From Rheinheimera sp. (lineage in GTDB: Bacteria; Pseudomonadota; Gammaproteobacteria; Enterobacterales; Alteromonadaceae), in assembly GCF_020217005.1 (NCBI RefSeq), contig NZ_JAIWOI010000276.1, positions 1 through 13,424 on the forward strand: 13,424 nucleotides of DNA, given 5' to 3'. The position numbers were made by a program, and so were the translations under genes. Below are positions 1,127-13,424 of the stretch, in pieces (position 1 is the first letter of the stretch; the number at the start of each line of letters is the position of its first letter). The notes below the pieces were generated by a model, which saw nothing but the letters and a program-made list of their open reading frames with translations, was not told the DNA's origin and did not search any database.

Positions 1127-1135
1127 AGAGCCCCC

Positions 1136-1336
1136 TTATAATTTTTTCCACAGGTAAATACCGACCAGGCCAATCACACCCACCACGGCGAATGGGATTG
1201 CACTTTCCCAGCCGCCGCCAAAATTAATTGAACCGCCGTTGGTGTTTTTGCCCTGAATATCCCCCGCCACCGCTGAGCCGCTATCACTCAGACCGCCTGA
1301 CATACCAGGCAAGCCAGTTGCTAAAAGCGGGTTCAT
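1136..1336 (-). CDS. Small Gly/Ser-rich single-span membrane protein, putative virion membrane component
   Basis: This is a 66-residue protein. The N-terminal two thirds is rich in Gly, Ser and Asn (GGLSDSGSAVAGD, NTNGGSINFGGG). A single hydrophobic segment spans about residues 46-63 (AIPFAVVGVIGLVGIYLW) and ends in a KKL tail. The ATG overlaps the stop of the preceding gene in an ATGA motif (1333-1336). No strong Shine-Dalgarno sequence is seen, so translation is probably coupled. The design (short flexible domain, one span near the C-terminus, basic end) is shared with the neighbouring small proteins and fits the set of short membrane proteins of the PM2 internal membrane. No family is recognised. 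The function is inferred from genomic position only. Confidence 0.7.
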   Translation of the reverse strand: MNPLLATGLPGMSGGLSDSGSAVAGDIQGKNTNGGSINFGGGWESAIPFAVVGVIGLVGIYLWKKL

Positions 1337-1569
1337 TGGTTGGTTACTCTGTCAGGCATCCCACGTTCTACGGGGTCGCGTGTTACTGGTGCGCCCACGT
1401 TGATAGGTTGCAAGCGGGTCGGTGTTTTAGAGATTGGCTGCTTTACCCCTGTTAAGGTATTGCTGCGGCTAATTACGGTTTGCACAAGTCCGCTTGGTCT
1501 TGTTATCACAGGGTTTGCCTGTTTTGGTGGGAAAAACTGCGCTTTTAGGTTTGTGAAAAAGTTACCCAT
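1333..1569 (-). CDS. Small basic hypothetical protein of the structural operon
   Basis: This is a 78-residue protein with ATG at 1569 and a GAGG Shine-Dalgarno sequence five bases upstream. It begins MGNFFTNLKAQFFPPKQ, then continues as a Pro/Thr/Val/Arg-rich chain with little predicted regular structure and no membrane segment. The charge is strongly basic. Its stop overlaps the next start (ATGA at 1333-1336), and it starts 7 bases after the 121-residue membrane protein ends. A basic, extended protein among virion genes could bind DNA or tie the capsid to the membrane, but nothing in the sequence decides this and I do not recognise a family. The coding call rests on the ribosome site, the overlap and the compact operon. 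Confidence 0.65.
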   Translation of the reverse strand: MGNFFTNLKAQFFPPKQANPVITRPSGLVQTVISRSNTLTGVKQPISKTPTRLQPINVGAPVTRDPVERGMPDRVTNQ

Positions 1570-1576
1570 GACCGCC

Positions 1577-1942
1577 TCACTTCATCATTTTGAAGGCAAA
1601 CACGCCTAAGACCAGTGCGCCAATAATCATTGCTCCGGTTTTTGCTGTGCCTGTCTCAATGGTTAAACCGCCGATACTTATCACCTCTTCATTGAGTGGT
1701 GAACCGTCCCAGTCCCGACCCACAGCCGTTTGCTGTTGCCTCTGGTAGGCCGCCGAGCTGGTCGCATCGTAATACGCCTGTGTATCTGCGGGCAGAACAC
1801 CAAGCTTTTCGTTAATTTTTGCCTGTACCAGCTGAGTTGAACCCTCACCGATACTTTCAAACACCTTGACGCCCGCCCCTGTTGCGGCCTGTGCCAGCTG
1901 CTGATACCACGTTAATGCTGGGGCTGCTGTTGCTGTTGCCAT
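1577..1942 (-). CDS. C-terminally anchored membrane protein, putative virion membrane component
   Basis: The chosen start is ATG 1942 (MATATAAPALTWYQQ, 121 residues), preceded by AAAGGA. The frame also stays open upstream to a GTG at 1972, but that codon lies inside the terminator hairpin and lacks a ribosome site. Residues 1-70 look helical and Ala/Gln-rich, 71-98 contain a short polar/beta section, and 101-118 (TGAMIIGALVLGVFAF) form one membrane segment ending in KMMK. It is the first gene after the capsid gene and its terminator, so it is probably expressed by read-through at a lower level than the capsid protein. The likely location is the phage internal membrane. No family is recognised, and the role is inferred from topology and position. 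Confidence 0.75.
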   Translation of the reverse strand: MATATAAPALTWYQQLAQAATGAGVKVFESIGEGSTQLVQAKINEKLGVLPADTQAYYDATSSAAYQRQQQTAVGRDWDGSPLNEEVISIGGLTIETGTAKTGAMIIGALVLGVFAFKMMK

Positions 1943-1961
1943 CTTTGCTGTCCTTTGATTA

Positions 1962-1992
1962 AAAAAGCCCACGTCTATCAGTGGGCTTTTTG
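1962..1992 (-). terminator. Intrinsic terminator directly after the capsid gene
   Basis: Arms AAAAAGCCCAC (1963-1973) and GTGGGCTTTTT (1982-1992) form a perfect stem with an 8-base loop. On the minus strand the GC-rich stem is followed by a run of six T, the classic Rho-independent form. The A/T ends make it potentially bidirectional. It sits 18 bases after the capsid stop and just before the start of the next virion gene, so it should limit transcription into the membrane-protein genes rather than end the operon completely. Confidence 0.85.
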
Positions 1993-2009
1993 TTTACCGA
2001 TCACCGCTG

Positions 2010-2858
2010 TTAAGCCGCCGCTGATGTTGTGATTGCGTTCACCTGGTCGATGGTTTCCACCAACACTTTGATACCGCCCAGCGCCGTCACGTCATACTTA
2101 AAGGCCAGCTCTTTTTGTGCAATGGTCGGGAATGCACCTTCCCAATGAAAGCCAATATGCGCAGGGTCGAAGTGGAACACGTTAGCCACTGGCGCATTGT
2201 CTCCGCCTTCGCCTAAGTCCTGAGCGTTATCCACTGCGCTAGCCTGATAGACTTTCAAATCGTCGCGGTACACCTGCAACTTTGACACGTTGCCACTTAA
2301 GAAATGCAAGCGGCGTATGAAGTGCGAACCGCTACGCAAAGGCCATGACATATGATTTTCGCCGACAACAGACGGGTCGATATTGATGCTGTATACCTTC
2401 GGGATGAAGTAGCGCACAGGCTGGCTTGGCGTTACTAAGGCGCGGGCTCGCAGTGTTGGCACTGTAGCACCTGTATCACCAAAGGTGACGTACACGGTCA
2501 GCGTGTCAGAGGGCAGTGTCACCAACTCACCCAAGCGCATACTGTTTAAGGTGCTGGCTTCAGGGTTAAAGAAGTTGATAACGTAGCGGCCCGCCGCACG
2601 GCTGCGTTTTGTGTAGGCTTCTAAAACGCTTTTCAGGTCGTAGCCTGTGCAGTTCACAATCGTATTGCCGTTTAATTCCACTTCTACTTTTGCGATTTTG
2701 GTCACGTCAGTAATGTTTGAAATTAACTCAATCATCTGGAAGGTCGCGCCTGGTGTCACCTGAAGACTTGCGCGTTGGTTTGAACCCACGCCTACAAAGT
2801 TGTTCAGCTCCACAGGGGTTGGCTTAAAGCCGTTTACTGCAATTTCTAACAGGTTCAT
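2010..2858 (-). CDS. Major capsid protein, PM2 P2-like double jelly roll
   Basis: This 282-residue soluble protein has no membrane segment; PM2 P2 is 269 residues. Two similar halves can be seen. Residues about 25-67 (polar lead, then TFQMIELISNITDVTKI and KVEVELNGNTIV) resemble about 164-204 (SWPLRSGSHFIRRLHFLSGN, then KLQVYRDDLKVY). This duplication is expected of a double jelly roll built from two beta-barrels. The first half also matches my memory of the P2 pattern: Asn-rich lead, hydrophobic strand, short loop, then a strand ending in a ValGluLeu-x-Gly turn. Trimers would form the pseudo-hexagonal shell around the lipid membrane. ATG 2858 has AAGGGG five bases upstream, overlapping the stop of the 41-residue gene, so translation is coupled. 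An intrinsic terminator follows. The fold is inferred by eye and should be tested by structure prediction. Confidence 0.85.
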   Translation of the reverse strand: MNLLEIAVNGFKPTPVELNNFVGVGSNQRASLQVTPGATFQMIELISNITDVTKIAKVEVELNGNTIVNCTGYDLKSVLEAYTKRSRAAGRYVINFFNPEASTLNSMRLGELVTLPSDTLTVYVTFGDTGATVPTLRARALVTPSQPVRYFIPKVYSINIDPSVVGENHMSWPLRSGSHFIRRLHFLSGNVSKLQVYRDDLKVYQASAVDNAQDLGEGGDNAPVANVFHFDPAHIGFHWEGAFPTIAQKELAFKYDVTALGGIKVLVETIDQVNAITTSAAA

Positions 2859-2867
2859 GGCTACCCC

Positions 2868-2993
2868 TTAACGTACAATGTTGCGAACAGCTGAAACGTT
2901 GTTAGCGGCCCAAATAGCCACCAGCGCTGTACCACCTGCAACCAGCAATAAAGTCATCAGGCTGTAGGTTTGTTTGGTTTGTAAATCTGGCAT
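2868..2993 (-). CDS. 41-residue single-span membrane protein just upstream of capsid gene
   Basis: This short gene reads MPDLQTKQTYSLMTLL and onwards, with a single membrane segment at about residues 11-31 (SLMTLLLVAGGTALVAIWAA) and a short basic tail ending in NIVR. The ATG at 2993 has GAGG with 7 bases between it and the start. Its TAA stop is embedded in the capsid gene's Shine-Dalgarno sequence (TAAGGGG at 2864-2870), a strong sign of coupled translation. Small membrane proteins encoded beside the capsid gene are typical of PM2, where they line the internal membrane under the shell. I infer such a role. No family is recognised. Confidence comes from the ribosome site, the stop/SD overlap and the clear hydrophobic span. 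Confidence 0.75.
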   Translation of the reverse strand: MPDLQTKQTYSLMTLLLVAGGTALVAIWAANNVSAVRNIVR

Positions 2994-3102
2994 TTTTGCC
3001 CTCACTTAGTTGATTAAAATCTTGTCTGCTATGCCCCTAAAGGCTGCGCCAAAAAATCAACACGTTCAAAATAGATTCCTGAATTATCCCCAAAAGAGGG
3101 AA

Positions 3103-3804
3103 TCAGAACATAATGCTTTTTTGCTCGTAATTCCCAATACCGCCGCGCTTTACAAGGTAATATTTTTTGCGTTTTTGGTTCAGGCTGCCAAGTTCTACAA
3201 TTTCCGAAATTTGGCAATCCAGCTCTTCAGACCAGCGTTTTGCGTCCAGCGTGGCCCGCTGTGCGCCGACCACTAAATACTCCGCCTGAGTGATAAACGT
3301 CTTTGGCACTTCAGACGGGCGCTGAAATGAGAAATGCCATACCAGATTGAATTTCCGGCCTCCTGTGGCTATTTCCCCGATGCGGCCCGTTGCTTTGCCT
3401 GTGCTGTCGATGTACTTCGCCATTTCTTCAAACACAACATCTAATCGCCTGTTGCCGTCTGATGCTTTCCACATCACATCAGCGAACCATTCAGATTCTG
3501 TTTTATAGTCTTCTGCTGTTTTAAAGTCCGGCTGATACGCCACCACAAAGGTTTTACCACTGGCCCATGCTTCAGCGAATGCCTTTAAAAACGTGTGCCT
3601 TGTGCTGTAGTGGTAAACTTTTCTGCCACCCAAACCAGACAGCCTACGGATCCGATTTGGTCGGTAATCCCCGTACACGTCAAGAATTGCCACGCACTGG
3701 CCGACCAGCCCCATGAGTTTTACAGCCACAGTCTTTCCTGCGCCTGTGGTCCCGCAGTAGCAAGCCCCCAGCGGGTCTAGGCTGTTGTTAGGATTGATTG
3801 CCAT
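3103..3804 (-). CDS. Genome packaging ATPase, PRD1/PM2 P9 (FtsK/HerA-like) type
   Basis: This is a 233-residue P-loop ATPase from ATG 3804 (MAINPNNSLDPLG), with GAGG nine bases upstream. An in-frame upstream ATG at 3861 would add a lysine/arginine-rich piece that only overlaps the previous gene. Walker A is GTTGAGKT (residues 18-25). Walker B is LDVVFEE (121-127) with an acidic pair. A later WHFSFQRPSEVPKTF stretch (156-170) resembles the Gln-Arg-Pro-Ser sensor segment of HerA/VirB4/FtsK-like ATPases. There is no membrane segment, unlike most Zot/pI proteins of filamentous phages. In PRD1/PM2-type viruses this enzyme drives genome entry into the preformed, membrane-lined capsid at a special vertex. 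It overlaps the preceding gene by 17 bases and lies upstream of the capsid gene, a neighbourhood expected for this virus group. Confidence 0.8.
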   Translation of the reverse strand: MAINPNNSLDPLGACYCGTTGAGKTVAVKLMGLVGQCVAILDVYGDYRPNRIRRLSGLGGRKVYHYSTRHTFLKAFAEAWASGKTFVVAYQPDFKTAEDYKTESEWFADVMWKASDGNRRLDVVFEEMAKYIDSTGKATGRIGEIATGGRKFNLVWHFSFQRPSEVPKTFITQAEYLVVGAQRATLDAKRWSEELDCQISEIVELGSLNQKRKKYYLVKRGGIGNYEQKSIMF

Positions 3805-4273
3805 GCGCTGCCGCCTCTTTTTCTTCTTTCTGGTACTGCTTATGGGCCTTGTACATGCCATAGCCCAGCGCCCCCAGCGCCATCAGTGCATCTATTTCAA
3901 CCTTCCATTTGATAAACAGCGCTGAAGGTTCGCCCACGCCATATTTTACCAAGCAAGGCGCTATGCCTTTGGCTAGTTTGTTGGCGGCCTGTTCGGTCAG
4001 GTTGTAGCTGCGGCCTGTTGATTCCTGAAGGGCAAAGAACAAAAAGCCAGCGGCGTTTTTGGCGGCTTCTTCTGCAAGCTTTATGCGGGCTGGGTCTAAC
4101 TCTGGCGGCATTTCCAGCGGCGGCAATTGCTCAACCTCTGTTTTTTCCTCTGCCGCCGTTGATTCGCCTAGCAATGCCGTAAAAGACGGGTCTAGCTGCT
4201 GGGTTGTCACGACTTCAGCACCTGGCGCGGTCACGCCATTGTCCACCTGGTCTGTCACTGTTGTTTCAATCAT
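3788..4273 (-). CDS. Putative membrane-associated phage protein with acidic N-terminus
   Basis: This 161-residue protein starts at ATG 4273, with AAGGT six bases upstream and an ATGA overlap with the preceding gene. Residues 1-60 are acidic and Pro/Thr/Glu-rich, hence probably unstructured. Residues 61-125 look helical (PARIKLAEEAAKNAAG through NLTEQAANKLAKGIAP). Residues about 127-142 (IDALMALGALGYGMYKA) form a short hydrophobic segment followed by a highly charged tail (KEEKEAAAH). Its end overlaps the ATPase start by 17 bases. A membrane-associated partner translated together with the packaging ATPase might help place it at the vertex, but that is speculation from position. I do not recognise a family. 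Confidence 0.7.
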   Translation of the reverse strand: MIETTVTDQVDNGVTAPGAEVVTTQQLDPSFTALLGESTAAEEKTEVEQLPPLEMPPELDPARIKLAEEAAKNAAGFLFFALQESTGRSYNLTEQAANKLAKGIAPCLVKYGVGEPSALFIKWKVEIDALMALGALGYGMYKAHKQYQKEEKEAAAHGNQS

Positions 4274-4665
4274 CTTGCTACCTTCAGTACAAGGCCGCCC
4301 ACTGCCAACAGCAAAAGGCTGAATCCTGCGACTTTCTTAAGGATTCCGCCTTTTGGTGCTGTATTTTGTGGTTCCGGCTGGTTTTGTTGAGTTTCAGACA
4401 CGCCCAATAACGGCGCGGACTGCGTTTTGATGGTGGGGCTCCATTCCTTCCCCAAATTTTCGGAATTTTCCGGATTATTTTCGGACTCAGATTCCGGAAT
4501 TCCCGAAACTGCTTTTTGCAGTTTTTCCTGAAAAGCCTGACTGCTGCTTTTGTGGGTTCCGCATTTACACGCCAGATACAGCAGAGGCGAATTTTTTATT
4601 TTTCGAACTGGTGCTTGTTCGCCGCAGTGCGGGCAAGCGGTCATTGCTAAGTTTTCGTTTGCCAT
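4270..4665 (-). CDS. Zinc-ribbon protein with C-terminal membrane segment
   Basis: The best start is ATG 4665 (MANENLAMTACPHC, 131 residues), which has GGGGGT just upstream. The frame is open further up to 4731 but without a comparable ribosome site. Cys11 and Cys14 (CPHC) with Cys33 and Cys35 (CKC) make a four-cysteine zinc-binding ribbon. A polar Glu/Asn/Ser/Gln-rich linker spans about 52-105. Residues 112-129 (VAGFSLLLLAVGGLVLKV) form one membrane segment. The protein overlaps the next gene by ATGA. From memory, PM2 encodes a zinc-finger-type late-gene activator, but a membrane anchor is not expected of a transcription factor, so I do not equate the two. It could be a virion membrane protein with a zinc-stabilised knob. 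Confidence 0.75.
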   Translation of the reverse strand: MANENLAMTACPHCGEQAPVRKIKNSPLLYLACKCGTHKSSSQAFQEKLQKAVSGIPESESENNPENSENLGKEWSPTIKTQSAPLLGVSETQQNQPEPQNTAPKGGILKKVAGFSLLLLAVGGLVLKVAR

Positions 4666-4796
4666 TACAACCCCCATGAAGCTGTGCAGCTGTGAGTTTT
4701 TGTCGTGTTGTGCGTTTGGTGCATATCCCATATTTTTTGCAGGGAATAGCCCAATCCTAAATAAACACCAGCCGTCACTCTGTTAGCTTGAAGCAT
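4665..4796 (-). CDS. Possible 43-residue ORF coupled to the zinc-ribbon gene
   Basis: An ATG at 4796 opens a 43-codon frame (MLQANRVTAGVYLGLGYSLQ onwards, ending CTASWGL). Its TAA overlaps the ATG of the zinc-ribbon gene in a TAATG motif, the same junction type seen at 380 in this element. The first 22 residues are weakly hydrophobic; the rest is Thr/His-rich and unremarkable. The ribosome site is poor (only GGA close to the start). It may be a short leader peptide that couples translation, or simply an open stretch in a 100-base intergenic gap. No family is recognised. Confidence 0.3.
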   Translation of the reverse strand: MLQANRVTAGVYLGLGYSLQKIWDMHQTHNTTKTHSCTASWGL

Positions 4797-4828
4797 TTTC
4801 CAGCTGGGTATTCCCAAAGGGCGGCGCA

Positions 4829-5110
4829 TCATTGCGCCACCTTCTCAGGTTTGGTCAGCTTTTTAACCTGGGCCTCAAGCGAAGCAATTTTTTTACCCAT
4901 GGCCTCAAACTGCTTTTTAACTTCGCTTTCACTGGTTAAGCCGTCCAGCTTTTCGGCTACGGTCTGAAGGAATGGGACAACATCGTCTTTTAGCAGCTGT
5001 TTTGCTGCTGCTGGCTGCTGAAATACGCCTAAATTATCAATGGCTTCAGCTTTGGTGATGATTGCTGCTACTACTTGCACCAAAAGTGCGTTTTGTGTTG
5101 TTTTGGTCAT
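4829..5110 (-). CDS. Small coiled-coil protein downstream of Rep
   Basis: The preferred start is ATG 5110 (MTKTTQNALLVQVV, 93 residues), with GAGG seven bases upstream. A TTG at 5140 would add ten residues but overlaps the end of rep without a ribosome site. The protein is mostly alpha-helical by composition. Residues about 66-88 (SEVKKQFEAMGKKIASLEAQ and on) show heptad spacing of hydrophobic residues with charged flanks, a short coiled coil suited to dimer or trimer formation. There is no membrane segment. It begins 17 bases after the rep stop, so it is probably co-transcribed with it. It could assist replication or be a regulator. No family is recognised. Confidence 0.7.
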   Translation of the reverse strand: MTKTTQNALLVQVVAAIITKAEAIDNLGVFQQPAAAKQLLKDDVVPFLQTVAEKLDGLTSESEVKKQFEAMGKKIASLEAQVKKLTKPEKVAQ

Positions 5111-5127
5111 GGTATTGCCTCGTTGTG

Positions 5128-6936
5128 TTATGCCGCGCAACTGTCCCAGCTGGGTTCCGGTGCGTAGCTGTTAAAGTAATCGGTGATTTTTTCGGTGATG
5201 TATTCCCCGGCGGCGTTGATGTAAGCGACAAAGCCCGATTTTTTGCTGGTGAATTCTGCTAATTCGTTGGCGGCCCGTTCAAAGCGGTTCCAGAAATGCT
5301 CGTTGCGCTCCGGCTGGTTTAGTTCGGACTTACAGTTATTCTCACGGGTCCGAGCTGCGCGGTTTGCACCTTGCAAAGAGCAAAAGCGGCTCAGGCTGCC
5401 TTTCAGGTTGCCCAAACTAATCCAGTTGCGGCGGGTAATCATGTAGTTGTGTGCTCCGGCGATAATGCCCACGATTTTCTCCCGCACCGTCCCGCTGGCT
5501 GTTTCCTTGACGTGTTTAATTGTGTTAACCGGATAACTGCTGCGCGGTGCGTTTAGGCCGCCCATGAGCTGCACAAACTTACAGAACTGGCCCTTGTCTG
5601 CCGCTTCGCGTATGGCTTCTGTTTTTTCACAGGTTAAAGGTTCACGGATGCGCCGTAGTTCGCGCCAAACTGTGACTGGTGGGCTGCCGATAAACTGGAA
5701 TTGACGGATACCCCAGCGGCTGGCCCATGCCCTGCACTTTTGGCTAACGTCTGCTATAGGTTCGCCAGTTTCGTTGTCCAGCTCCGTTTCTACATGGCTG
5801 GCGTTAATGCTTTTGCTGATGTATTTCGCTATATAGGCCACAGCGCAGCCCTTGGCAGGGTCTATTTCTTCCACAGTAAAGCGGTGCTGCTCAGCACCTT
5901 TTTCGTCGCGGTCATGCTGTAGTGCGTAGTGCTTTAGCAACCGGATCACCGACTCTTTAAAATCGGGCAACACAAACAGCAACATATGCCAGTGTGGGGT
6001 CTCGTCGTTGTGTGGCTCTACTACCCGAAGGCCAGATATTTTTATGTCCGATTCGCTTAATTCAGCGCGAACCTTTGCCCACTGCTTAGACAGGTAACGC
6101 TGAGTGTCGCGTGGGTCTGAGCCATTCCACTTTTTACCGCTGTTGTAGTGGTAAGCGCCTGGCGCGGTGATGGTCACGAAAATAGCTGTATGCCCTGCCG
6201 CTTCTGCCGCTTCTTTCATGCCCCGAATGCGGGCCATCATTTCAAGACGGCGAATTTCAGGGTTTGCGGTGCTGCCTGCTGCGGCTTCGCTCAGGCTGAT
6301 AATGTCTAAATCATCAAAACCGTTTGCGGTCTCGCTTTCGGCTGCAATGAAATTGTTTTCAAGGAATTCTGCGGCGTCTTTTTGCTGCTTTACCCACTCA
6401 GACAGGCATTCTTTGCTGATATAGCTTTCAGCGCCACGGCCTACCATGCCCAAGGCGATAGCCATGTATTCCCGCGCTCTGGCCGCTGTTTTTTTGGCTT
6501 GGCGCTGCCACCATTTTTCATTGTCTAAATGGGCTACGCACTGGCTAATTTGCGCTGGCGTCATCTTTTTGCGGTCTGCACCTGGCGGCACAAAACCAAA
6601 GCGCTTGGCATAGGCGGCTAAGTGCTTATAGCGCGGTATTAATTCGTCAATGGTGATGTGACTGCCACGGCTTGAGGTGTAGCGCCAGCGGAAGCACTCA
6701 GAGGCCCAGCTTGTTGCTGTTGTATCTGTGCTTATCGCCGTTAAAGGCATTTTGATGCGCTTCAGCTTACCCATAATCAGACGTAGCCACACGTTAGCGG
6801 CTACATCGTCTTTTTGGTATTTGCTGGTATACGTGCTGATTAGGGTTCTTTCGTAGCGGGCTGGCAGACAATCCACCAGCTCATTAGACCAACGCCAATC
6901 ACTTAGGGCTGAAACGGGGTAAGCACTCAGAGGCAT
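5128..6936 (-). CDS. HUH rolling-circle replication initiator, phage gpA superfamily (PM2 P12-like)
   Basis: This is a site-specific nickase that would start rolling-circle replication of the phage genome. Counting from a GTG at 6942, the motifs are motif I FVTITAPG (255-262), the HUH metal site PHWHM (His317, His319), and motif III AYIAKYISKS with two tyrosines four apart (Tyr370, Tyr374). That two-tyrosine arrangement marks the phiX174/P2 A superfamily, to which PM2 P12 (about 630 residues) also belongs. I prefer the start at ATG 6936 (602 residues; subtract two), because GAGG lies seven bases upstream of it and only two bases before the GTG. The first ~250 residues are helical and charged with no recognised domain. 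The region after about 400 is also unassigned. Initiators of this group often nick within their own gene, so the origin may lie here. It follows four coupled small genes. Confidence 0.9.
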   Translation of the reverse strand: MPLSAYPVSALSDWRWSNELVDCLPARYERTLISTYTSKYQKDDVAANVWLRLIMGKLKRIKMPLTAISTDTTATSWASECFRWRYTSSRGSHITIDELIPRYKHLAAYAKRFGFVPPGADRKKMTPAQISQCVAHLDNEKWWQRQAKKTAARAREYMAIALGMVGRGAESYISKECLSEWVKQQKDAAEFLENNFIAAESETANGFDDLDIISLSEAAAGSTANPEIRRLEMMARIRGMKEAAEAAGHTAIFVTITAPGAYHYNSGKKWNGSDPRDTQRYLSKQWAKVRAELSESDIKISGLRVVEPHNDETPHWHMLLFVLPDFKESVIRLLKHYALQHDRDEKGAEQHRFTVEEIDPAKGCAVAYIAKYISKSINASHVETELDNETGEPIADVSQKCRAWASRWGIRQFQFIGSPPVTVWRELRRIREPLTCEKTEAIREAADKGQFCKFVQLMGGLNAPRSSYPVNTIKHVKETASGTVREKIVGIIAGAHNYMITRRNWISLGNLKGSLSRFCSLQGANRAARTRENNCKSELNQPERNEHFWNRFERAANELAEFTSKKSGFVAYINAAGEYITEKITDYFNSYAPEPSWDSCAA

Positions 6937-6938
6937 GT

Positions 6939-7229
6939 TCACGCCTCTAGGCGTTCAATAAGGTGCAGTTGCTCAGGTGACAGGCACAGGGTTATAGGTT
7001 CATTTTTGAATACGCCTATATCCGCTGTGCCTTCTTCGTCTGCCCATTGGAATTGAAATGCAACCTCTGGCGCGGCCCTGTCGGGTCGAAGTTGCAGTAC
7101 AAGGCCAATTCTTTCCTGTACGCTTGATGACATATAACCCGTTGGCGCAATCACATTTAAGCCGATCAGGTCTTTTTTCAATATGGCTGCGGCCCGTCCT
7201 GCTGAAACTCTGTAGTTGGTGAATTTCAT
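6939..7229 (-). CDS. Small early phage protein upstream of Rep
   Basis: This 96-residue soluble protein has ATG 7229 with GGAGG seven bases upstream and an ATGA overlap with the gene before it. Its stop is 3 bases before the preferred rep start. The first part is basic (NYRVSAGRAAAILKKDLIG) and could be a small helical DNA-contacting segment. The remainder alternates hydrophobic and polar residues (IGLVLQLRPD, VAFQFQWADEE), which suggests beta strands, ending in a helix (PEQLHLIERLEA). Tight linkage to rep suggests a replication accessory or single-strand-binding role, but there is no recognised family or catalytic motif. Confidence 0.75.
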   Translation of the reverse strand: MKFTNYRVSAGRAAAILKKDLIGLNVIAPTGYMSSSVQERIGLVLQLRPDRAAPEVAFQFQWADEEGTADIGVFKNEPITLCLSPEQLHLIERLEA

Positions 7230-7456
7230 GCTGTAGCCTCCAGACCTGCAAACTTTGTAAATTGAACGTCTGAAAGTCTTTTTAATGGCTTGCTTCCAGT
7301 GTCAAAGTTGTCAAGCAACACTAAGCCCTGATAGTGATGTATCACCGCGCATCTAAACCAATTAACGCCGCCGCGCTCTCTGTACATTGCATGCATTCCA
7401 GCCGCTGGAATGTAGCCAGTGACCGCCTCTAATTGCTCTGCTCTGGCTGGTCTCAT
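7226..7456 (-). CDS. Small early phage protein, unknown function
   Basis: This is a 76-residue protein with ATG 7456, GGAGG eight bases upstream and ATGA overlaps at both ends (7453-7456 and 7226-7229). Its sequence runs MRPARAEQLEAVTGYI, then a Trp/Phe/His-containing centre (GGVNWFRCAVIHHYQG, LVLLDNF) and a basic C-terminal part (SKPLKRLSDVQFTKF). The centre looks like a small beta-sheet. No membrane span and no metal-binding pattern are obvious. Its place between the promoter and rep marks it as an early gene, perhaps acting on replication or host takeover, but the sequence gives no family. Confidence 0.7.
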   Translation of the reverse strand: MRPARAEQLEAVTGYIPAAGMHAMYRERGGVNWFRCAVIHHYQGLVLLDNFDTGSKPLKRLSDVQFTKFAGLEATA

Positions 7457-7698
7457 GCTGGCAGCCTCCGCCCTTTGGCTGCCCTTTTCATTCGTTCAAC
7501 CCTTTCATTGCCTAGCCTTTCTGCCACGGCTATTTGTTTTTTGTTCCAACTGTGCCATAGCGGCACTAATGGGGCTGTCATTGCGTGTATTAGTCTCTCA
7601 ATTTGTATTGGGTCTACATTGAATTTAATTGCAACCCTTACATCAATCATCAGCATGTACTGAGCATGCAAAAGCGCTCTGCAAATTCCGTCTCTCAT
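7453..7698 (-). CDS. Small basic early phage protein, unknown function
   Basis: This is an 81-residue protein with ATG 7698 following a GGGGGGG run, and ATGA overlaps at both ends. It is predicted helical: residues 1-22 (MRDGICRALLHAQYMLMID) are hydrophobic to amphipathic. A middle part mentions VDPIQIERLIHAMTAPLVPL, and the C-terminus is strongly basic (GNERVERMKRAAKGRRLPA). The basic tail would suit nucleic-acid binding. It belongs to the four-gene coupled early cluster. I do not recognise it. Confidence 0.7.
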   Translation of the reverse strand: MRDGICRALLHAQYMLMIDVRVAIKFNVDPIQIERLIHAMTAPLVPLWHSWNKKQIAVAERLGNERVERMKRAAKGRRLPA

Positions 7699-7994
7699 AA
7701 AGACCCCCCCGCCAGCGCTGCTAATTTGCTACCTGGCAACGGATCAGCATTTTTGCTTTGGCTGCCTTTCAGCCGGGCTTTGATTTGGTCGAGGTATTTG
7801 CCGTTCAGCTCGCACTGTGCGATTTGCTCGGGGCTGCGGCTGATGGTGACTGACTGTTTTATGTAATTCATTGCAGACTTGATGCTGGCTTGTGCTAGTG
7901 GGTCTTTGGTGGCTTGTGCCAGCAATAGCTTATAGCCGTTGTATGCTGGCTTCAGACTCTGTTCAGGTCTGGGCACTACTGTATGTTTATCCAT
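7695..7994 (-). CDS. First gene of the early operon, unknown function
   Basis: This 99-residue, mostly helical, basic protein has ATG 7994 with GGAG eight bases upstream. Sequence landmarks are SLKPAYNGYKLLLAQATKDP near the N-terminus and ARLKGSQSKNADPLPGSKLA near the C-terminus. There is no membrane segment or known motif. It is the first gene downstream of the minus-strand early promoter, after a leader of roughly 140 bases that carries a strong hairpin. Its stop overlaps the next start (ATGA). First-position early genes of small phages are often regulators or host-takeover proteins, but this one gives no family match by eye. Confidence 0.7.
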   Translation of the reverse strand: MDKHTVVPRPEQSLKPAYNGYKLLLAQATKDPLAQASIKSAMNYIKQSVTISRSPEQIAQCELNGKYLDQIKARLKGSQSKNADPLPGSKLAALAGGSL

Positions 7995-8047
7995 GTGTTC
8001 GGCTCCGCATTGTTTTGACCGCCCTACACACCGCCCCTACAGCGGTC

Positions 8048-8086
8048 GGGCTGGGTTAGCCAGTGAGGATTCCAGCTAACCCGCCC
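8048..8086. promoter_or_regulatory. Leader hairpin of the early operon
   Basis: Arms GGGTTAGC (8053-8060) and GCTAACCC (8075-8082) pair perfectly across a 14-base loop. The stem extends with GGGC (8048-8051) against GCCC (8083-8086), leaving one bulged T. It lies in the untranslated leader between the minus-strand promoter and the first early gene. No T-run follows on the minus strand, so it is not a standard terminator. It could be an RNA structure controlling translation or transcription, or part of a replication origin. Confidence 0.6.
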
Positions 8087-8140
8087 ATAGGGATTTGCTT
8101 TTCAGGCTTTGTTCTTGGGGAATAAACCGAAAGCACGCTG

Positions 8141-8169
8141 ATGATAGTCAATGAGCATATACACGTAAA
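8141..8169 (-). promoter_or_regulatory. Early promoter driving the leftward phage genes
   Basis: On the minus strand, TTTACG (8169-8164) and TATCAT (8146-8141) are separated by exactly 17 bases. The -10 box matches consensus in 5 of 6 positions and the -35 box in 4 of 6. The -35 lies inside the palindromic operator, so a bound repressor would block it. It would transcribe the four small early genes and rep. Confidence 0.65.
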
Positions 8170-8184
8170 TGCGCATTTACATGT
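8161..8184. promoter_or_regulatory. Palindromic operator between divergent promoters
   Basis: GTAAATGCGCATTTAC (8165-8180) is a perfect 16-base palindrome. With flanks ACAC and ATGT the symmetry extends to 24 bases with a single mismatched pair. It contains the -35 boxes of both divergent promoters and lies 62 bases upstream of the HTH repressor gene. It is the obvious binding site for a dimer of that repressor and would control both its own gene and the early operon. Confidence 0.75.
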
Positions 8185-8204
8185 TGTTGGCTGTTAGCTA
8201 TGCG
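8176..8204 (+). promoter_or_regulatory. Candidate promoter of the repressor gene
   Basis: TTTACA (8176-8181) is followed 17 bases later by TATGCG (8199-8204). The -35 box is good (5 of 6). The -10 box is poor beyond TAT, so the call is tentative. The -35 sits in the right half of the palindrome, giving the symmetric divergent arrangement expected for a self-regulated repressor. Confidence 0.4.
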
Positions 8205-8245
8205 CCTAAACTTCACAAGGAAAATGAGTTCTTGGGGGAACTAAA

Positions 8246-8554
8246 GTGAAAACAGTCGAATATATAGATGCGCTGATAGCAGCGTATTTACTGGAGTCTG
8301 ATTATCAACTTGCAAAGAAACTTGGTGAAAGTAGAGCCAGAATCAGCCAGTACAGAACTGGTCGCAACATTATGGATGATGACTTTGCTATCAAAACAGC
8401 TTACATGCTTGACCTAAACCCTTTAGCGGTGCTGGCTGACGCTCACATTGAGCGCGAAATGAAGCGTGGCAATAATTCGATGGTAATTTTTTGGGAAGAG
8501 GTTAAAAAGTCCGGCAAGATGGACGTCAAAGTCCTGTCTAAAATGGTGGCCTAA
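8246..8554 (+). CDS. HTH repressor/regulator of the prophage
   Basis: This is a 102-residue protein with a GTG start at 8246 and a strong GGGGGA Shine-Dalgarno sequence six to seven bases upstream. Residues about 18-60 carry a helix-turn-helix: SDYQLAKKLGESRARISQYR is followed by an extended Asp-rich helix and LDLNPLAVLADA. The overall length and the N-terminal MKTVEYIDAL lead-in resemble the small DUF3693-like/Cro-type regulators of filamentous and other small marine phages. That is a recollection of the family style and not a search result. It is the only phage gene on the plus strand and faces a palindromic operator covering both divergent promoters, so it most likely represses the early operon and itself, holding the element as a prophage. 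A hairpin follows the gene. Confidence 0.85.
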   Translation: MKTVEYIDALIAAYLLESDYQLAKKLGESRARISQYRTGRNIMDDDFAIKTAYMLDLNPLAVLADAHIEREMKRGNNSMVIFWEEVKKSGKMDVKVLSKMVA

Positions 8555-8566
8555 CACCTAAATTCT

Positions 8567-8603
8567 GCGGCGGATTTCCTTATCATTTTGATAAATTCGC
8601 CGC
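8567..8603 (+). terminator. Hairpin after the repressor gene, possible terminator
   Basis: GCGGCGGAT (8567-8575) pairs with ATTCGCCGC (8595-8603) with one G-T wobble. Inside it TTATCA (8580-8585) pairs with TGATAA (8589-8594) around a 3-base loop, with a TTCC bulge. It starts 12 bases after the repressor stop. No clean T-run follows on the plus strand, so termination may be weak or Rho-aided. It may also be a structural part of the attachment region. Confidence 0.5.
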
Positions 8604-8651
8604 GTTCCTCCCCTTCTAAGTATCTGATTTAAAACGGTCTTTACATTCAGC

Positions 8652-8679
8652 GCTAAAAATAATGATTATTATGTTAAAT
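8652..8679 (+). other. dif-like XerC/XerD recombination site, putative right prophage junction
   Basis: TTATGTTAAAT (8669-8679) is identical to the XerD arm of E. coli dif. The six central bases TGATTA match TGTATA in 4 of 6. The adjoining XerC arm GCTAAAAATAA (8652-8662) matches GGTGCGCATAA in 6 of 11, with the four inner bases ATAA intact. The total is 21 of 28. The site lies exactly between the last phage gene and the end of host nhaP2. A perfect host-side XerD arm with a degenerate phage-side XerC arm is what a hybrid junction would look like. Confidence 0.65.
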
Positions 8680-8744
8680 TGAATATTGTTATTGGGTTAT
8701 CAACTTAACCCGCTACCGTAATCCAGATGTTCCAACAGTATTAA

Positions 8745-8787
8745 AAGCCTTATGCCTGATTTAATTCATTTATCCGGCATAAGGCTT
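8745..8787 (-). terminator. Terminator of nhaP2
   Basis: AAGCCTTATGCC (8745-8756) and GGCATAAGGCTT (8776-8787) form a perfect 12-base stem. On the minus strand the stem ends in TTTTAATAC, a short T-run. It lies 11 bases after the nhaP2 stop and closes the host transcription unit before the phage border. Confidence 0.75.
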
Positions 8788-8798
8788 ACTTCTATAGA

Positions 8799-10520
8799 TT
8801 AAGCCGACTTAATACCCACCTGCAGTATCTGGTCGTGGTCGTCTATTTGACGCACTGTCAGTACTAACTGGTCCAATTGCACCTGGTCGCCAACCACCAC
8901 ACGTCTGTGGAATTTTTCGGTGATGTATTCGGACAAACTCTGGCTTGGATCCTGGTCTTCAGCAAATTGAATGCTGTAGAAGCCATCCAGTTCGTTTAAG
9001 GTGATTTCGCCGTTTAATACGAAGTCACCGAAGAAATCCAGTTTATCCAGCGAGGTTTGCTCTGCGCTTGTGGACACTTTGTCACTGACAGCTTTTACAT
9101 CTTTGGCTTTACTCAATACCAACAGCATATCGTTCAGTTGAAAGCTTGGGCTTTGCTCGGCTTTGATCCATTCGCCTTTACGCAGCACACCCAAATAGCT
9201 GACATCCGGTGACATATTCAGTTGCTGCCAGTCACTGTCGACAATAGGTGAACCTTTGCCGACTTTAAACGAAAGTACCTGTAGCAAATCATTACTGGCT
9301 ACGCTGTCGAGTGTCATGGAGTGATCCGGGCCTGGCTCTGGTGGCACTTCGAGCTTCAGCCAGCGCGCTACTGGCGCTATAGACCAGCCCTGAATAAGCA
9401 AAGATACGATCACTACGAAAAACGCCACATTAAAGTACAAATCTTTATTCGGTACACCTGCTAACCATGGGAATAACGCCAGAATAATAGGCACAGCACC
9501 ACGTAAGCCAACCCAACTGATAAACACCTGATCTTTCTTAGGAAAATGAAAAGGTACCAAGCTTAAAAACACCGCTATTGGCCGGGCTATAAAGATCATC
9601 ACTAATGCCAGTATCAGCGCAGGAATTGCATATTCCATCAGCTTACTTGGCGTAACCAGCAAACCTAGCATCAAAAACATAATAATTTGACTAAGCCAGG
9701 CTAAACCGTCATGCATTCTCAGGATTTGTTGAATTTGCGGTAAACGGGCGTTGCCTATTAAAAAGCCCATCAAATACACAGCCAGAAAACCACTGCCGCC
9801 AAATTGGTTGGTTAAACCGTAAATCAGCAGTGCGTAAGATACGGCCAATAAAGGGAAAAAGGCTGCGCTTAATGGCAGTTTGCGGCAAAGTAAAACAAAG
9901 AAGCGCCCTGCTCCATAGCCTACTGCTGCGCCCACAATGGCTTGCTGAAAAAATACCGTCGACAAAGACCAATTCAATTCACTTTGACCGGCCAAAACCC
10001 CAACCAGAGTAAAGGTTAACATCACCGCCATAGGGTCGTTACTACCCGACTCTATTTCCAGTGTGGACGCTACCCGTTCTTTAATATTTAAGCCGGCAGA
10101 CTGGAAGATTGAAAATACAGCAGCGGCATCTGTTGAGCTTAATATCGCCCCTAACAGCAAGCCTTCTAATAAGGTCAAATTAAACAGATAAGAGGCTGCG
10201 ACACCTAAAATGCCGCAGGTCAGTACTACGCCCAACGTGGCCAATACAGCTGAAGGCGCCAGCACCACCCGAACACGATCCGGATGTGTGCGCATACCAC
10301 CATCAAACAGAATAATCACAAGGGCAATAGAGCCAATCAGCAGAGCAACATCAGGATTGCCAAACTTGATGCCCAGCAAACCGTCTTCACCGGCCAGCAT
10401 GCCAATGACAAGGAAAATTAATAATAAAGGCGCACCTAAGCGCGCCGAGATCAGAGTCGCAACTATACTGGAGAAAAACAGAGCCCCTGCAACCAGGATT
10501 GTTAAATTCACTGCATCCAA
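8799..10520 (-). CDS. nhaP2: K+/H+ antiporter NhaP2/CvrA
   Basis: This inner-membrane cation/proton antiporter has 573 residues; the E. coli homologue is about 578. About 12 membrane segments occupy residues 5-395. Signature ion-binding motifs are SSTDAAAVF (128-136, with Asp131) and ESGSNDPMAV (157-166, with Asn161-Asp162), typical of the CPA1 NhaP group. A cytoplasmic TrkA-C/RCK-C-like domain follows (about 405-480), and a CorC/HlyC-type C-terminal domain (about 490-573) completes the CvrA architecture. This family exports K+ (or Na+) and supports growth under osmotic or alkaline stress. The start is TTG 10520 with AAGGAG seven bases upstream; no better ATG is nearby. It lies 18 bases after pyrF, so the two are probably co-transcribed, and it is the last host gene before the prophage. 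Confidence 0.9.
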   Translation of the reverse strand: MDAVNLTILVAGALFFSSIVATLISARLGAPLLLIFLVIGMLAGEDGLLGIKFGNPDVALLIGSIALVIILFDGGMRTHPDRVRVVLAPSAVLATLGVVLTCGILGVAASYLFNLTLLEGLLLGAILSSTDAAAVFSIFQSAGLNIKERVASTLEIESGSNDPMAVMLTFTLVGVLAGQSELNWSLSTVFFQQAIVGAAVGYGAGRFFVLLCRKLPLSAAFFPLLAVSYALLIYGLTNQFGGSGFLAVYLMGFLIGNARLPQIQQILRMHDGLAWLSQIIMFLMLGLLVTPSKLMEYAIPALILALVMIFIARPIAVFLSLVPFHFPKKDQVFISWVGLRGAVPIILALFPWLAGVPNKDLYFNVAFFVVIVSLLIQGWSIAPVARWLKLEVPPEPGPDHSMTLDSVASNDLLQVLSFKVGKGSPIVDSDWQQLNMSPDVSYLGVLRKGEWIKAEQSPSFQLNDMLLVLSKAKDVKAVSDKVSTSAEQTSLDKLDFFGDFVLNGEITLNELDGFYSIQFAEDQDPSQSLSEYITEKFHRRVVVGDQVQLDQLVLTVRQIDDHDQILQVGIKSA

Positions 10521-10538
10521 ATAAAAGCTCCTTTTTTC

Positions 10539-11246
10539 TTAATGCGCGGGGTAAATCTCCCGGTAAATTTGTTGTAAAGCAGATAATGGATCGGCGGCTT
10601 TGGTAATTGGGCGACCTATCACCATATAGTCTACACCAGCCTTTAACGCATCAGCTGGAGTCATCACTCGTTTTTGATCATCAGCTGTGGCAAAAGATGG
10701 ACGAATACCTGGCGTCACTAAGCAGAACTCTTTACCAAATTGCTGTTTTAATTCAACAGCTTCTTGTGCAGAACACACTACGCCATCCAAACCGGATTTT
10801 TCCACCAGACCCGCCAGTCTGAGTACCTGCTGGTGCGGCGTTAAATTAATACCCAACTCTACTAAATCACTTTGCTCCATGCTGGTCAACACAGTCACAG
10901 CAATCAGCAGTGGTTTCTCTTTACCAAAACTTTCTAAAGCTTCGCGGGCAGCAATCATCATACGACTGCCACCGGATGCATGTACATTCACCATCCACAC
11001 ACCTAAATCGGCAGCGGCTTTAACAGCCTTGGCCACTGTATTTGGAATATCGTGAAATTTCAGATCTAAAAACACATCAAACTTGCGCTGCTGCAGTTCT
11101 TTGACAAAGTCCGGGCCAAAGTGAGTAAACATTTCTTTGCCTACTTTTAACCGACATAAAGCCGGGTCGAGTTGGCTGACTAAATTTAATGCTACGGATT
11201 TTTGTTCAAAGTCTAAGGCGACCACTATAGGACTGGAGTTATTCAT
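10539..11246 (-). CDS. pyrF: Orotidine 5'-phosphate decarboxylase
   Basis: This enzyme carries out the last step of UMP synthesis, decarboxylating OMP in the cytoplasm. It has 235 residues, the usual length for bacterial PyrF. The substrate aspartate is in VVALDF (Asp11). The catalytic charge array is DLKFHD (Asp61, Lys63, Asp66) followed by [13 protein letters not shown] (33-40) supplies another active-site lysine. VTPGIRP and VIGRPIT near the C-terminus form the phosphate-gripping loop. All key residues are present and nothing suggests decay. It begins 21 bases after lapB, in the same lapA-lapB-pyrF order as in E. coli, where the genes also lie together. Confidence 0.97.
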
Positions 11247-11267
11247 CAGGTTCTCTTCTATCTAAGA

Positions 11268-12398
11268 TCAGCGACCGTCTATGCCGGTCATTGGCTCTAC
11301 CGTTTCCCACTGCTGGCAAGACGGACAGAGCCAATAAGGTTGTTTGGTCTTAAAACCGCAGTTGCGACAATGATACAGTACTTTGGTGTCGAGATAAGCC
11401 TGTAGCATCTGCTCTATTTCAGCCAGGTGTGGCTCAGACGGGTTTTGTAACCGTCTGATTTGAATGAATTTTAAAAACAAGCGGATGTTCGGTTGTTGCC
11501 GCAATTTATCCGTTAGCAAATTCTCAGCTTGCTGTAGGTTGTCACCTGTCGCATAAAACTGTGCTAGTTCGGCCGTCGCACTGATGTTTTTATGTTTACG
11601 GCTCAATTCTGTGAGTAGCGCCTGCCACTCTGCTGGTTCTGGTGTGGTTTGCGCTACTAATGGCAACAACTCAGCTGCCCATTGCGGCCTTTGTTGTAGT
11701 ATGGCCAGCAACAGCTCACGTGCTTCGTCAAATTCCTCTTCGGCAATAAGTTTTTTCGCCAGCTCGTATTTAGGCCGCAAGGATACCGGATAACGTTGGA
11801 TCAATTGACGATACGCACCGCTTGGCACCGATTCTTTATGCCAGGCTTCACAGCTAAAGTTTGCAATACCAATACGTAAGGAGCGGGAATCTGTCTGTTC
11901 TACTACGGCACGGAAATCCATGGCTTTTTGCCATTCGTGAGTGGCTGTGAATAAACTAAAGAGTTGTTTTAACACAGCTTCACGAATGCTTTCAGCCTGG
12001 ACCAGTGCACTTAATAAAGGTTCGGCTCTGTCGTATAAACCTGCACTGAAGTAGTCTTTAGCCAATTCGAATTGGATTTTTTGTGCCTGCTGTTTTGGCA
12101 GTTTTAACTGATGTAATTTTTCATGAATACGAATAGCTTTATCCCAGTCGCCACGACGACGGAACAGGTTGGCTAATGCCAGATAGGTATCGATAGTGGC
12201 GGCTTCGACATCAAGCAATTGCAGTAACTGCTCTATAGCTTTGTCTTCCTGATCAGTGAGCAGGAAATTTAAGCCTGAAGACAAATTTTTAGTAACAGAA
12301 GCCCTGCCCTTAAGCTCTTTTTGTTTTTCGCTGTTTCGCCCCATAAACCAGCCATAAGCGGCGGCAACGGGAAGTAACAGAAATAACAGTTCCAGCAT
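11268..12398 (-). CDS. lapB: LPS assembly regulator LapB (YciM), TPR protein
   Basis: LapB is an inner-membrane protein that adjusts lipopolysaccharide synthesis by presenting LpxC to the FtsH protease. This one has 376 residues. It has an N-terminal membrane anchor (LLFLLLPVAAAYGWFMG, about 4-20), then tandem TPR helices (for example AATIDTYLALANLFRRRGDW and the following repeat). It ends in a rubredoxin-like metal site with Cys344/Cys347 (CRNC) and Cys358/Cys361 (CPSC) that packs on the TPRs. This architecture is diagnostic. The ATG lies 5 bases after the lapA stop with no clear ribosome site of its own, so translation is probably coupled to lapA. Confidence 0.95.
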   Translation of the reverse strand: MLELLFLLLPVAAAYGWFMGRNSEKQKELKGRASVTKNLSSGLNFLLTDQEDKAIEQLLQLLDVEAATIDTYLALANLFRRRGDWDKAIRIHEKLHQLKLPKQQAQKIQFELAKDYFSAGLYDRAEPLLSALVQAESIREAVLKQLFSLFTATHEWQKAMDFRAVVEQTDSRSLRIGIANFSCEAWHKESVPSGAYRQLIQRYPVSLRPKYELAKKLIAEEEFDEARELLLAILQQRPQWAAELLPLVAQTTPEPAEWQALLTELSRKHKNISATAELAQFYATGDNLQQAENLLTDKLRQQPNIRLFLKFIQIRRLQNPSEPHLAEIEQMLQAYLDTKVLYHCRNCGFKTKQPYWLCPSCQQWETVEPMTGIDGR

Positions 12399-12403
12399 AG
12401 GGG

Positions 12404-12646
12404 TCAGGTTTTATCGAAAGATTTAGTAAACCAACCTTTGGTTTTTGCCTTCAGAATAAAGGCCATAGAAACGCTCAGGCCAAGCAGAAAACCAGACACT
12501 AAAAACAAAGCTGCGATATCTACCACTCTGAGTTCTGCTTTTGCAATAAGGTAGTTAAATTCAGCAACTTGCTGATTCAGGGAGCCCAGTACAAGCCCAA
12601 AAATAATAAGGGCGATGATAATTACAACATAAAAAAATCTGGTCAA
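12404..12646 (-). CDS. lapA: LapA (YciS), inner-membrane partner of LapB
   Basis: This is an 80-residue protein with two membrane segments (about residues 4-24 and 43-67) separated by a polar loop containing LNQQVAEFNYLIAKAELRVV. A basic cytoplasmic tail follows (KAKTKGWFTKSF). It is shorter than E. coli LapA (about 100 residues), the tail being reduced. The start is TTG 12646 with GGAG four to five bases upstream; a nearby ATG is absent. It sits between ihfB and lapB in the conserved gammaproteobacterial order. LapA is thought to work with LapB in LPS assembly, though its exact contribution is less clear than that of LapB. Confidence 0.9.
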   Translation of the reverse strand: MTRFFYVVIIIALIIFGLVLGSLNQQVAEFNYLIAKAELRVVDIAALFLVSGFLLGLSVSMAFILKAKTKGWFTKSFDKT

Positions 12647-12680
12647 GACTCCGTCAACCCCGCTTTTTGCTAATAAGAGA

Positions 12681-12965
12681 TCAGGTGTTAGCTTTCACCC
12701 TGTCACGTAATTCTTTACCCGGTTTGAAATGAGGCACGTATTTGCCATCTAATTCTACTTTGTCACCGGTTTTTGGATTGCGACCTACGCGAGGTGCACG
12801 ATAATGAAGAGAAAAGCTACCAAAACCACGAATTTCGATACGTTCGTTATTCGCCAACGAAGTGGCCATTTGTTCCAAAATTTCTTTGACTGACGATTCA
12901 ATATCCTTCACCTGGACATGAGAAAACTCAGTAGACAGTTTTTCGATCAATTCAGATTTGGTCAT
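12681..12965 (-). CDS. ihfB: Integration host factor subunit beta
   Basis: IhfB is a DNA-bending nucleoid protein that works as a heterodimer with IhfA in recombination, replication and transcription. This one has 94 residues, the normal length. Landmarks are the N-terminal [14 protein letters not shown] helix, the [11 protein letters not shown] strand turn (46-56), and the [10 protein letters not shown] arm (61-70) with Pro64, which inserts between base pairs. [14 protein letters not shown] closes the fold. GGAGG lies four bases before ATG 12965. It directly follows rpsA, as in most gammaproteobacteria. IHF is often required for phage site-specific recombination and replication, but no connection to this prophage can be seen. 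Confidence 0.97.
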
Positions 12966-12990
12966 GGACCCTCCGCTGTATCAGTAGAAT

Positions 12991-13020
12991 GAAGGACTGG
13001 AGCTGAAGCCCCAGTCCTTC
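12991..13020 (-). promoter_or_regulatory. Hairpin between rpsA and ihfB, without T-run
   Basis: GAAGGACTGG (12991-13000) and CCAGTCCTTC (13011-13020) form a perfect 10-base stem; the 10-base loop can add a GC/GC pair. On the minus strand it comes 14 bases after the rpsA stop. The following bases (ATTCTACTG) have no T-run, so it is not a standard intrinsic terminator. It could protect the 3' end of rpsA mRNA or give partial termination before ihfB. Confidence 0.6.
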
Positions 13021-13034
13021 TACACAAGCATCAA

Positions 13035-13424
13035 TTAGTCAGCTTTTTGAGCAGCTTTGAATGCTTCGGCCATAGCGTTACCACCAAAATCAGTATCATC
13101 CTGCTTTTTGATCGTGTCCATAGCTTCTTTTTCTTCAGCTTCGAATTTCGCTTTGATTGACAGGCTGATTACGCGGTTCTTGCGATCAACACCCATCAGG
13201 CGAGCTTCTACTTCTTCACCAACTTTTAATACTGTAGTAGCGTCTTCGATACGCTCACGAGCAATGTCAGATACGCGAACGTAACCTTCAACACCACCTT
13301 CCAGCATTACAGTAGCGCCTTTCGCGTCAACTGCAGTTACGTTGCCTTTAACGATAGCACCTTTTTTGTTATCAGCAAGGTAGCCGTTGAACGGATCTTC
13401 GTCTAATTGCTTGATGCCTAAAGA
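13035..13424 (-). CDS. rpsA: 30S ribosomal protein S1, C-terminal part (5' end outside window)
   Basis: The last 129 residues are present, open at the window edge. They begin [13 protein letters not shown] and contain the final S1 RNA-binding repeat: [57 protein letters not shown] charged tail follows, ending [14 protein letters not shown], which matches the characteristic S1 C-terminus. S1 binds mRNA at the 30S subunit and aids initiation on weak ribosome sites. The first part and its control region are not in the window. The order rpsA-ihfB is conserved. Confidence 0.97.

Follow-up and report, generated by a model that had tools for sequence, protein, structure and literature searches.

Gene content of the window

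The window, i.e., the whole 13,424-nucleotide stretch analyzed, carried one end of a prophage joined to a block of host genes (Table 1). The prophage was corticovirus-like, as it encoded a PM2-type double jelly-roll coat protein exceeding the cut-off of both PF18628 and PF25513, together with a packaging ATPase of phrog_2666. The ATPase gave no match in Pfam, and its homologues adjoined the coat gene in relatives. Scanning genome and viral contigs by pattern confirmed no close relatives of the coat protein, and within the genus the P2 coat was present in 1 of 22 genomes, namely that of the window itself.

The gene for a small HTH regulator, at the att-proximal end of the prophage, matched Pfam HTH_3 below the cut-off. 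Relatives of this gene were detected in 6 of the 394 genomes of the order, all six of which also harbored a PM2-type coat gene. The gene was not specific to phages ending at dif, as weak matches occurred in two loci of the integrase type described below (L131 and L132). No integrase-family match was found in the window or on contigs C164 and C171, and no DUF3653-type gene, a candidate Xer activator, was found in the window. The host possessed two XerC/XerD-like genes, located on C172 and C239.

The nhaP2 gene of the host flank was 93-99% identical in the seven best-matching Rheinheimera records listed. The host therefore grouped with Rheinheimera and not with Shewanella, from which the first-pass annotation had drawn its argument on the chromosomal position of this region.

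Table 1. Features of the window, and tyrosine recombinase ORFs outside the att sites of related loci (coordinates within each locus)
Feature	Coordinates	Strand	Basis or remark
Prophage portion, one end only	1..8651	.	coat, ATPase, replication and HTH genes; window is the whole contig piece
PM2-type major coat protein P2	2010..2858	-	PF18628 105.5 bits, PF25513 96.1 bits (cut-off 25); phrog_8536
Packaging ATPase	3103..3861	-	phrog_2666, E 9.1e-28; 44% identical to the ATPase of the G283 prophage
GPA-type replication initiator	5128..6942	-	PF05840 293 bits; phrog_91
Small HTH regulator gene at att end	8246..8554	+	PHROG HTH/regulator families, E 3.5e-17 and 1.2e-15
attR, prophage/host junction inside dif	8652..8679	+	sister-genome dif and homology border
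XerC-side arm GCTAAAAATAA	8652..8662	+	outer part 8652-8658 phage-derived; inner ATAA (8659-8662) same as host dif
Core TGATTA and XerD arm TTATGTTAAAT	8663..8679	+	host dif; 17-mer in eight sister genomes, contiguous host homology
Host flank: nhaP2 (8799-10520), pyrF, lapB, lapA, ihfB, rpsA	8680..13424	.	same order in sister genomes; names except nhaP2 by eye
Recombinase ORF outside att, L125	5166-6470		
Recombinase ORF outside att, L128	15544-16308		
Recombinase ORF outside att, L137	1632-2594		
Recombinase ORF outside att, L144	1652-2611		
Recombinase ORF outside att, L129	2080-3078		

The site between prophage and host

The 28 bases at the junction read GCTAAAAATAA TGATTA TTATGTTAAAT. When compared with the letters that we take to be those of E. 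coli dif, they agreed at 6 of 11 positions in the XerC arm, 4 of 6 in the core and 11 of 11 in the XerD arm, the same counts as had been given in the first-pass annotation. The chance expectation of 0.006 quoted there for the exact 11-mer in the window, with the remark that A/T bias would raise it, became 0.0097 at the base composition of the window for both strands. The 11-mer TTATGTTAAAT alone was little proof, because 2.85 occurrences were expected in the 3.92-Mb genome and three were found in the assembly. Against the dif of the sister genome G015, the site was the best 28-mer of the window with 22 of 28 matches (runner-up, 18 of 28); among 60 crude two-base-block shuffles the highest count was 20 of 28.

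Comparison with sister Rheinheimera genomes revealed a chromosomal dif (for example, GTGTCGCATAA-TGATTA-TTATGTTAAAT) near the same nhaP2 gene as in the window. The 17-mer TGATTATTATGTTAAAT, consisting of core and XerD arm, was shared with the dif of eight other genomes of the genus (G001, G002, G006, G012, G014, G015, G016 and G021). Other cores were TTATTA in G008 and G010 and TGTATA in the remaining members with a match, and G004, G007 and G018 gave no match to the loose dif pattern, which matched in 80 of 98 related genomes. Both nhaP2 and dif lay in the same stretch in 11 of 13 loci from 12 sister genomes, about 115 bp apart in G015; nhaP2 was absent from the fetched stretch in the remaining two, L069 (G005) and L057, which carries the second junction of G008. 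In the single-contig record of G015, dif was located at 2.278 of 4.628 Mb, which corresponds to the terminus provided that the record starts near the origin.

BLAST comparison of the window with five sister loci (L060, L059, L064, L155 and L151) gave a homology that began at 8659 in every case and extended to the right end of the window, with 89.6-93.1% DNA identity over the host flank. This border indicated that the right flank, the core and the XerD arm belonged to the host and the outer part of the XerC-side arm to the phage, and, as it fell inside the site, that the window held one junction of a prophage in dif. The match to the R. soli locus L188 was split into two pieces (8659-8690, and 8798 onward) by an insert between its dif and nhaP2, and that to the R. 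mesophila locus L058, occupied itself, started at 7977. The right junction of R. mesophila IITR-13 (G008) had the identical 11-bp XerC-side arm, but the core TTATTA, which fits a phage origin of this arm. The earlier assignment of the degenerate XerC arm to the phage and of the perfect XerD arm to the host was thus right. The element was inserted at the chromosomal dif, as expected of an IMEX (integrative mobile element exploiting Xer), since its border fell within the dif of the conserved nhaP2 locus. A dif-like att site belonging to the element itself, another IMEX trait, was seen in the two-ended relatives and free phages described below, the window showing one junction. Two outcomes had been named in advance as speaking against this, an integrase accompanied by another repeat and a separate canonical dif elsewhere in the chromosome. 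Neither was seen, and the dif pattern scan found no further canonical dif in this assembly.

The left side was also searched for the second dif-like site proposed in the first-pass annotation. The left junction of the prophage was not found in the assembly, including the neighboring pieces, and the full dif of the far end was likewise absent from it, as TTATGTTAAAT occurred there just three times. The host flank of the XerC side, on C171, did lead to a dif-like site, GTAGCACATAA TAGAGATA TTTCGTTAAAT at 8447, with an 8-bp core and followed by unrelated sequence. This different site and the sequence beyond it suggested that something else was inserted, or that a rearrangement had occurred, on the XerC side. 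Neither of the two ORFs beyond 8447 matched PHROG, and ORF 9315-9890 had no match in Pfam. Judged by eye only, this ORF resembled the end of a filamentous-phage Zot-like protein, and a Zot family search of this genome gave no matches. Since the assembly lacks the left end, the absence of an integrase, which had been claimed for the element, is not established for the one-ended window copy; it holds for the window and C164 and, with respect to tyrosine integrases, for the eight two-ended relatives described next.

Related prophages with two ends

The search for the P2 coat in 394 genomes of the order gave matches in 21 genomes, 20 of them over the cut-off, and 23 coat matches in total. Apart from the window itself and the coat matches of G073, G184 and G131, which were not fetched, the remaining 19 matches and the locus L129, chosen for its HTH gene, provided 20 loci from 18 genomes. 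Eight of the 20 had both ends at dif-type sites (G283, G214, G228, G126, G293, G430, G177 and G137), and no tyrosine integrase was detected between the ends in any of them by the integrase family search or the local model. The former covered 13 genomes, the latter was built from eight recombinases, and both addressed the tyrosine type only. Nine other loci, from eight genomes, all contained an integrase ORF in the fetched stretch and none contained a DUF3653-type gene; three of the nine were seed sources for the local recombinase model. In G287, G330 and G405 the integrase lay between a pair of direct repeats, which we take to be of the tRNA type in G287 and of the dusA type in G330 and G405. 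The last three loci were L130 and L138, short contigs left unclassed, and L129 with one dif end. L125 and L128 were outside the Pfam and NCBIfam scans, and L126, L127 and L144 were outside the NCBIfam scan.

Genome-wide, the dif pattern matched nowhere but at the two ends in G283, G214 and G126, and an additional dif-type match lay on another contig in G430, G137 and G228. At that stringency one end only matched in G177 and G293; the second end of G293, missed in the exact-repeat scan, was found by fuzzy search.

The closest two-ended relative was the prophage of Shewanella psychrotolerans (G283, a single contig), whose layout was that of the window. Its order was a full dif, the DUF3653-type gene, structural genes, coat, ATPase, small ORFs, the HTH gene and a site with a crippled arm. 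The polarity of the sites was of two kinds. The XerC arm was degenerate in the window, G283, G214 and G228 (type A), and the XerD arm in G126, G293, G430 and G177 (type B). G137 had an 8-bp core at one end. The idea that the crippled site always accompanies the HTH end was abandoned because G137 breaks it.

Tyrosine recombinase ORFs were also observed just outside some dif ends, at distances between about 35 bp and a few kb (Table 1).

A DUF3653-type gene accompanies the dif ends

All eight two-ended dif prophages carried an HTH/DUF3653-type gene beside one end, and the distance from this gene to the site was 92-238 bp in the eight and in G008. A model built from four of these ORFs (G283, G214, G008 and G021) matched all six further dif loci and none of the nine integrase loci, a split for which kinship among the phages weakens any p-value. 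The extended model also matched weakly to HTH ORFs in L127 and L129 and, in L144, to a pair of overlapping ORFs lying beyond the ends.

The first half of these proteins was an HTH. In Pfam, PF12375 (DUF3653) was over the cut-off for six of 11 proteins, just below it for two and absent for three, including that of G283. In NCBIfam, the top match for seven of eight proteins was NF040522, 'VC1465 family Xer recombination activation factor', with E-values from 0.025 to 1.6e-12, and the protein of R. mesophila (G008) gave no NF040522 match. The seven scored 14.6-47.5 bits against a curated cut-off of 70, so that the DUF3653-type proteins appear to be distant relatives of the activation factor family and not members of it. 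An IMEX of V. cholerae avoids the need for FtsK by encoding the XerD-activating factor XafT (PMC9765430, seen in part), which, judging from the family name, would be VC1465.

Other elements at the same dif

The right junction of R. mesophila IITR-13 carried, in addition to the XerC-side arm of the window, an HTH gene 75% identical to that of the window and a GPA-type replication gene. Further in were portal, terminase, major head, tail sheath and tail genes. At the DNA level, the window was matched over about 7977-8554 at 72%, with no homology over 8555-8651. The left junction, on another contig, had a full dif together with a baseplate gene and one of DUF3653 type. No integrase-family match was found on either junction contig, and no P2 coat in the genome. 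The two contigs probably represent one element, and its GPA and gpP-like terminase matches point to a contractile-tailed, P2-like phage. Thus, R. mesophila apparently harbors an integrase-less tailed phage at the same dif.

Among 43 nhaP2 loci (L149-L191), five had a DUF3653-type match. In Arsukibacterium indicum (L167), a DUF3653-type and a Zot-like gene lay between two sites with a common XerD arm, as did a DUF3653-type gene in R. aquimaris (L177). Another element, with Zot-like and DUF3653-type genes, was observed at the nhaP2-side dif of G021 (L078). In G016 (L059) and G002 (L062), elements that by eye resembled filamentous phages ended at dif on the XerC side with the near-canonical arm TATTCGCATAA.

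Att-like sites in free phages

A dif-like site was found in three free phages. In NO16 it read GGTGCGCATTA TGTATA ATGTGGTAAAC at 3280, between genes 6 and 7; in PG21, AGTGCGCATTA TTAGTTCT TTATGTAAAAT at 9824, between the HTH gene and the first gene, identical to the sequence at one end of G137; and in PM2 (AF155037), CGTGCTTACGA TTTATA TTATGTTAAAT at 747-774, between ORF a and ORF c and overlapping the annotated ORFs b/b*. One neighbor of the site was DUF3653-type in each phage, and the local model detected no integrase in any of them. The other neighbor was an HTH protein in PG21, and no HTH match was obtained in Pfam for NO16 gene 6 or PM2 ORF c. PM2 ORF a (77-550) matched the local DUF3653 model with E 1.4e-10 and NF040522 with E 1.9e-7, the latter below the cut-off, and PF12375 just below the cut-off. 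PM2 has long been treated as strictly lytic. The presence of an activator-like gene beside a dif-type site suggests that PM2 and the related phages can probably integrate without an integrase.

NO16 gene 7 (MH730557, 3558-3989), annotated as S-adenosylhomocysteine hydrolase, was DUF3653-type (57 bits, over the cut-off) and looks misnamed. The linear Vibrio record PQ189338 had a DUF3653-type gene at its end, and no att-like site was seen in that record.

Interpretation

Judging from the sequence comparisons, the site is very probably an attR, formed by XerC/XerD-type recombination when a corticovirus-like phage entered the chromosomal dif of its host, a Rheinheimera relative. The first-pass annotation had proposed Xer-dependent integration at dif; the dif site is supported by the arms and by the position of dif near nhaP2 in the sister genomes, and catalysis by XerC/XerD is what we infer from it. 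The circular phage would carry an attP composed of a poor XerC arm, a core and a XerD arm, which the host XerC/XerD would exchange with dif. A full dif would be left at the far phage end, such that dimer resolution could survive, and the crippled site at the HTH end would keep the prophage from being readily lost. By analogy with the two-ended relatives, the window copy would lack an integrase, and an HTH/DUF3653 protein encoded just inside its far end may assist XerD in working independently of FtsK.

A dif-like sequence standing by chance beside an unrelated phage end might be considered, as chance would give the 11-mer by itself about three times in the genome, but the same position beside nhaP2, the same core and the contiguous host homology in sister genomes already exclude it for practical purposes. 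The phage could instead have entered dif by means of its own dif-targeting integrase, encoded in the missing left end, and the Vibrio tailless prophages at dif are reported to have integrase genes regularly (PMC11630473, seen in part). We consider this improbable, because the two-ended dif relatives had no tyrosine integrase between their ends (0 of 8) whereas every one of the nine other loci had one in the fetched stretch; moreover, the recombinase ORFs outside att in L125, L128, L129, L137 and L144 could pass for phage genes.

The product of the DUF3653-type gene beside the site might be unconnected with Xer recombination, an excisionase or a further repressor being examples. Its HTH half, activator-family scores below the cut-off and the R. 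mesophila protein lacking a match would suit such a product. We regard this as possible but somewhat doubtful, given that the gene tracked dif integration (six of six further dif loci and none of nine integrase loci) and that the activator family was the leading NCBIfam match for seven of the eight proteins.

Beyond the single prophage, att with a small regulator on one side and a XafT-like activator on the other might form a portable Xer-lysogeny cassette traded among unrelated kinds of phage, a proposal on which we find the balance even. Under it, corticovirus-like phages would carry mirror-image forms with either the XerC or the XerD arm crippled, the apparently integrase-less tailed phage of R. 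mesophila would share the att arm of the window, with a homologous HTH end and, at the other end, a DUF3653-type gene of its own, and elements resembling filamentous phages, found at dif within this bacterial family, could carry a DUF3653-type gene. If true, PM2 keeps the cassette, as ORF a beside its dif-like site, and could lysogenize through dif. The comparison also suggests how a prophage leaves one working dif and one crippled site, points to a tailed phage seemingly on the same route, and names PM2 ORF a and NO16 gene 7 as candidate Xer activators. It further provides a testable rule, in which dif-type ends enclose no integrase and are accompanied by a DUF3653-type gene, and other ends go with an integrase.

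Comparison with known systems

The use of dif by PM2-like phages is already proposed in print, for the NO16 phages ('Asemoviridae') and for PM2, whose dif-like site was noted (PMC9966536, seen in part). NO16 is, like the window prophage, a PM2-type tailless phage with a dif-like att site, and a DUF3653-type gene adjoins this site as in the two-ended relatives. It differs in host and in having a degenerate XerD arm instead of the XerC arm of the window, and its coat is only distantly related, the best matches in the phage collection reaching no more than 35% identity. The part of PMC9966536 that was available mentions no Xer activator, with 0 occurrences of 'activation' and 'FtsK'.

Jorvik is an integrase-less phage of the PM2 order with a dif-like attP/attB, but has an alphaproteobacterial host and sits in a RuBisCO operon, and the attB location varies in its relatives (PMC10589892, seen in part). 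The PhiCjT23-like prophages of Flavobacterium, with a double jelly-roll and a membrane, have dif motifs at both ends; they differ in being ssDNA elements of Bacteroidetes, and their arms are reported to be a conserved palindromic motif at both ends (PMC9719478, seen in part). The use of dif has been put forward for Jorvik and for the PhiCjT23-like phages as well. The nearest phage-collection relatives of the window coat were the Vibrio tailless PM2-related prophages at dif, which a 2024 survey reports to carry integrase genes regularly and whose mechanism it called inconclusive (PMC11630473, seen in part).

Elements of other kinds are comparable in part. The attP of TLCphi has a poor XerD arm, in contrast to the poor XerC arm of the window type. 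TLCphi of V. cholerae, with XafT, is an element at dif encoding its own XerD-activating factor (PMC9765430, seen in part), but it is a satellite phage of another kind, and the relation between the activators is distant. The use of XerC/D by CTXphi is mentioned in PMC1950889, in the available part of which a dif site was not seen. A literature search over titles, abstract starts and term counts, with thin subscription coverage, yielded among the papers listed no link of a Xer activation factor to PM2-like phages and no P2-like tailed phage integrated at dif. Relative to these systems, the new elements are the comparison of two-ended prophages, the mirror-image att types, the probable activator link, PM2 included, and the apparently integrase-less tailed phage at the dif of R. 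mesophila.
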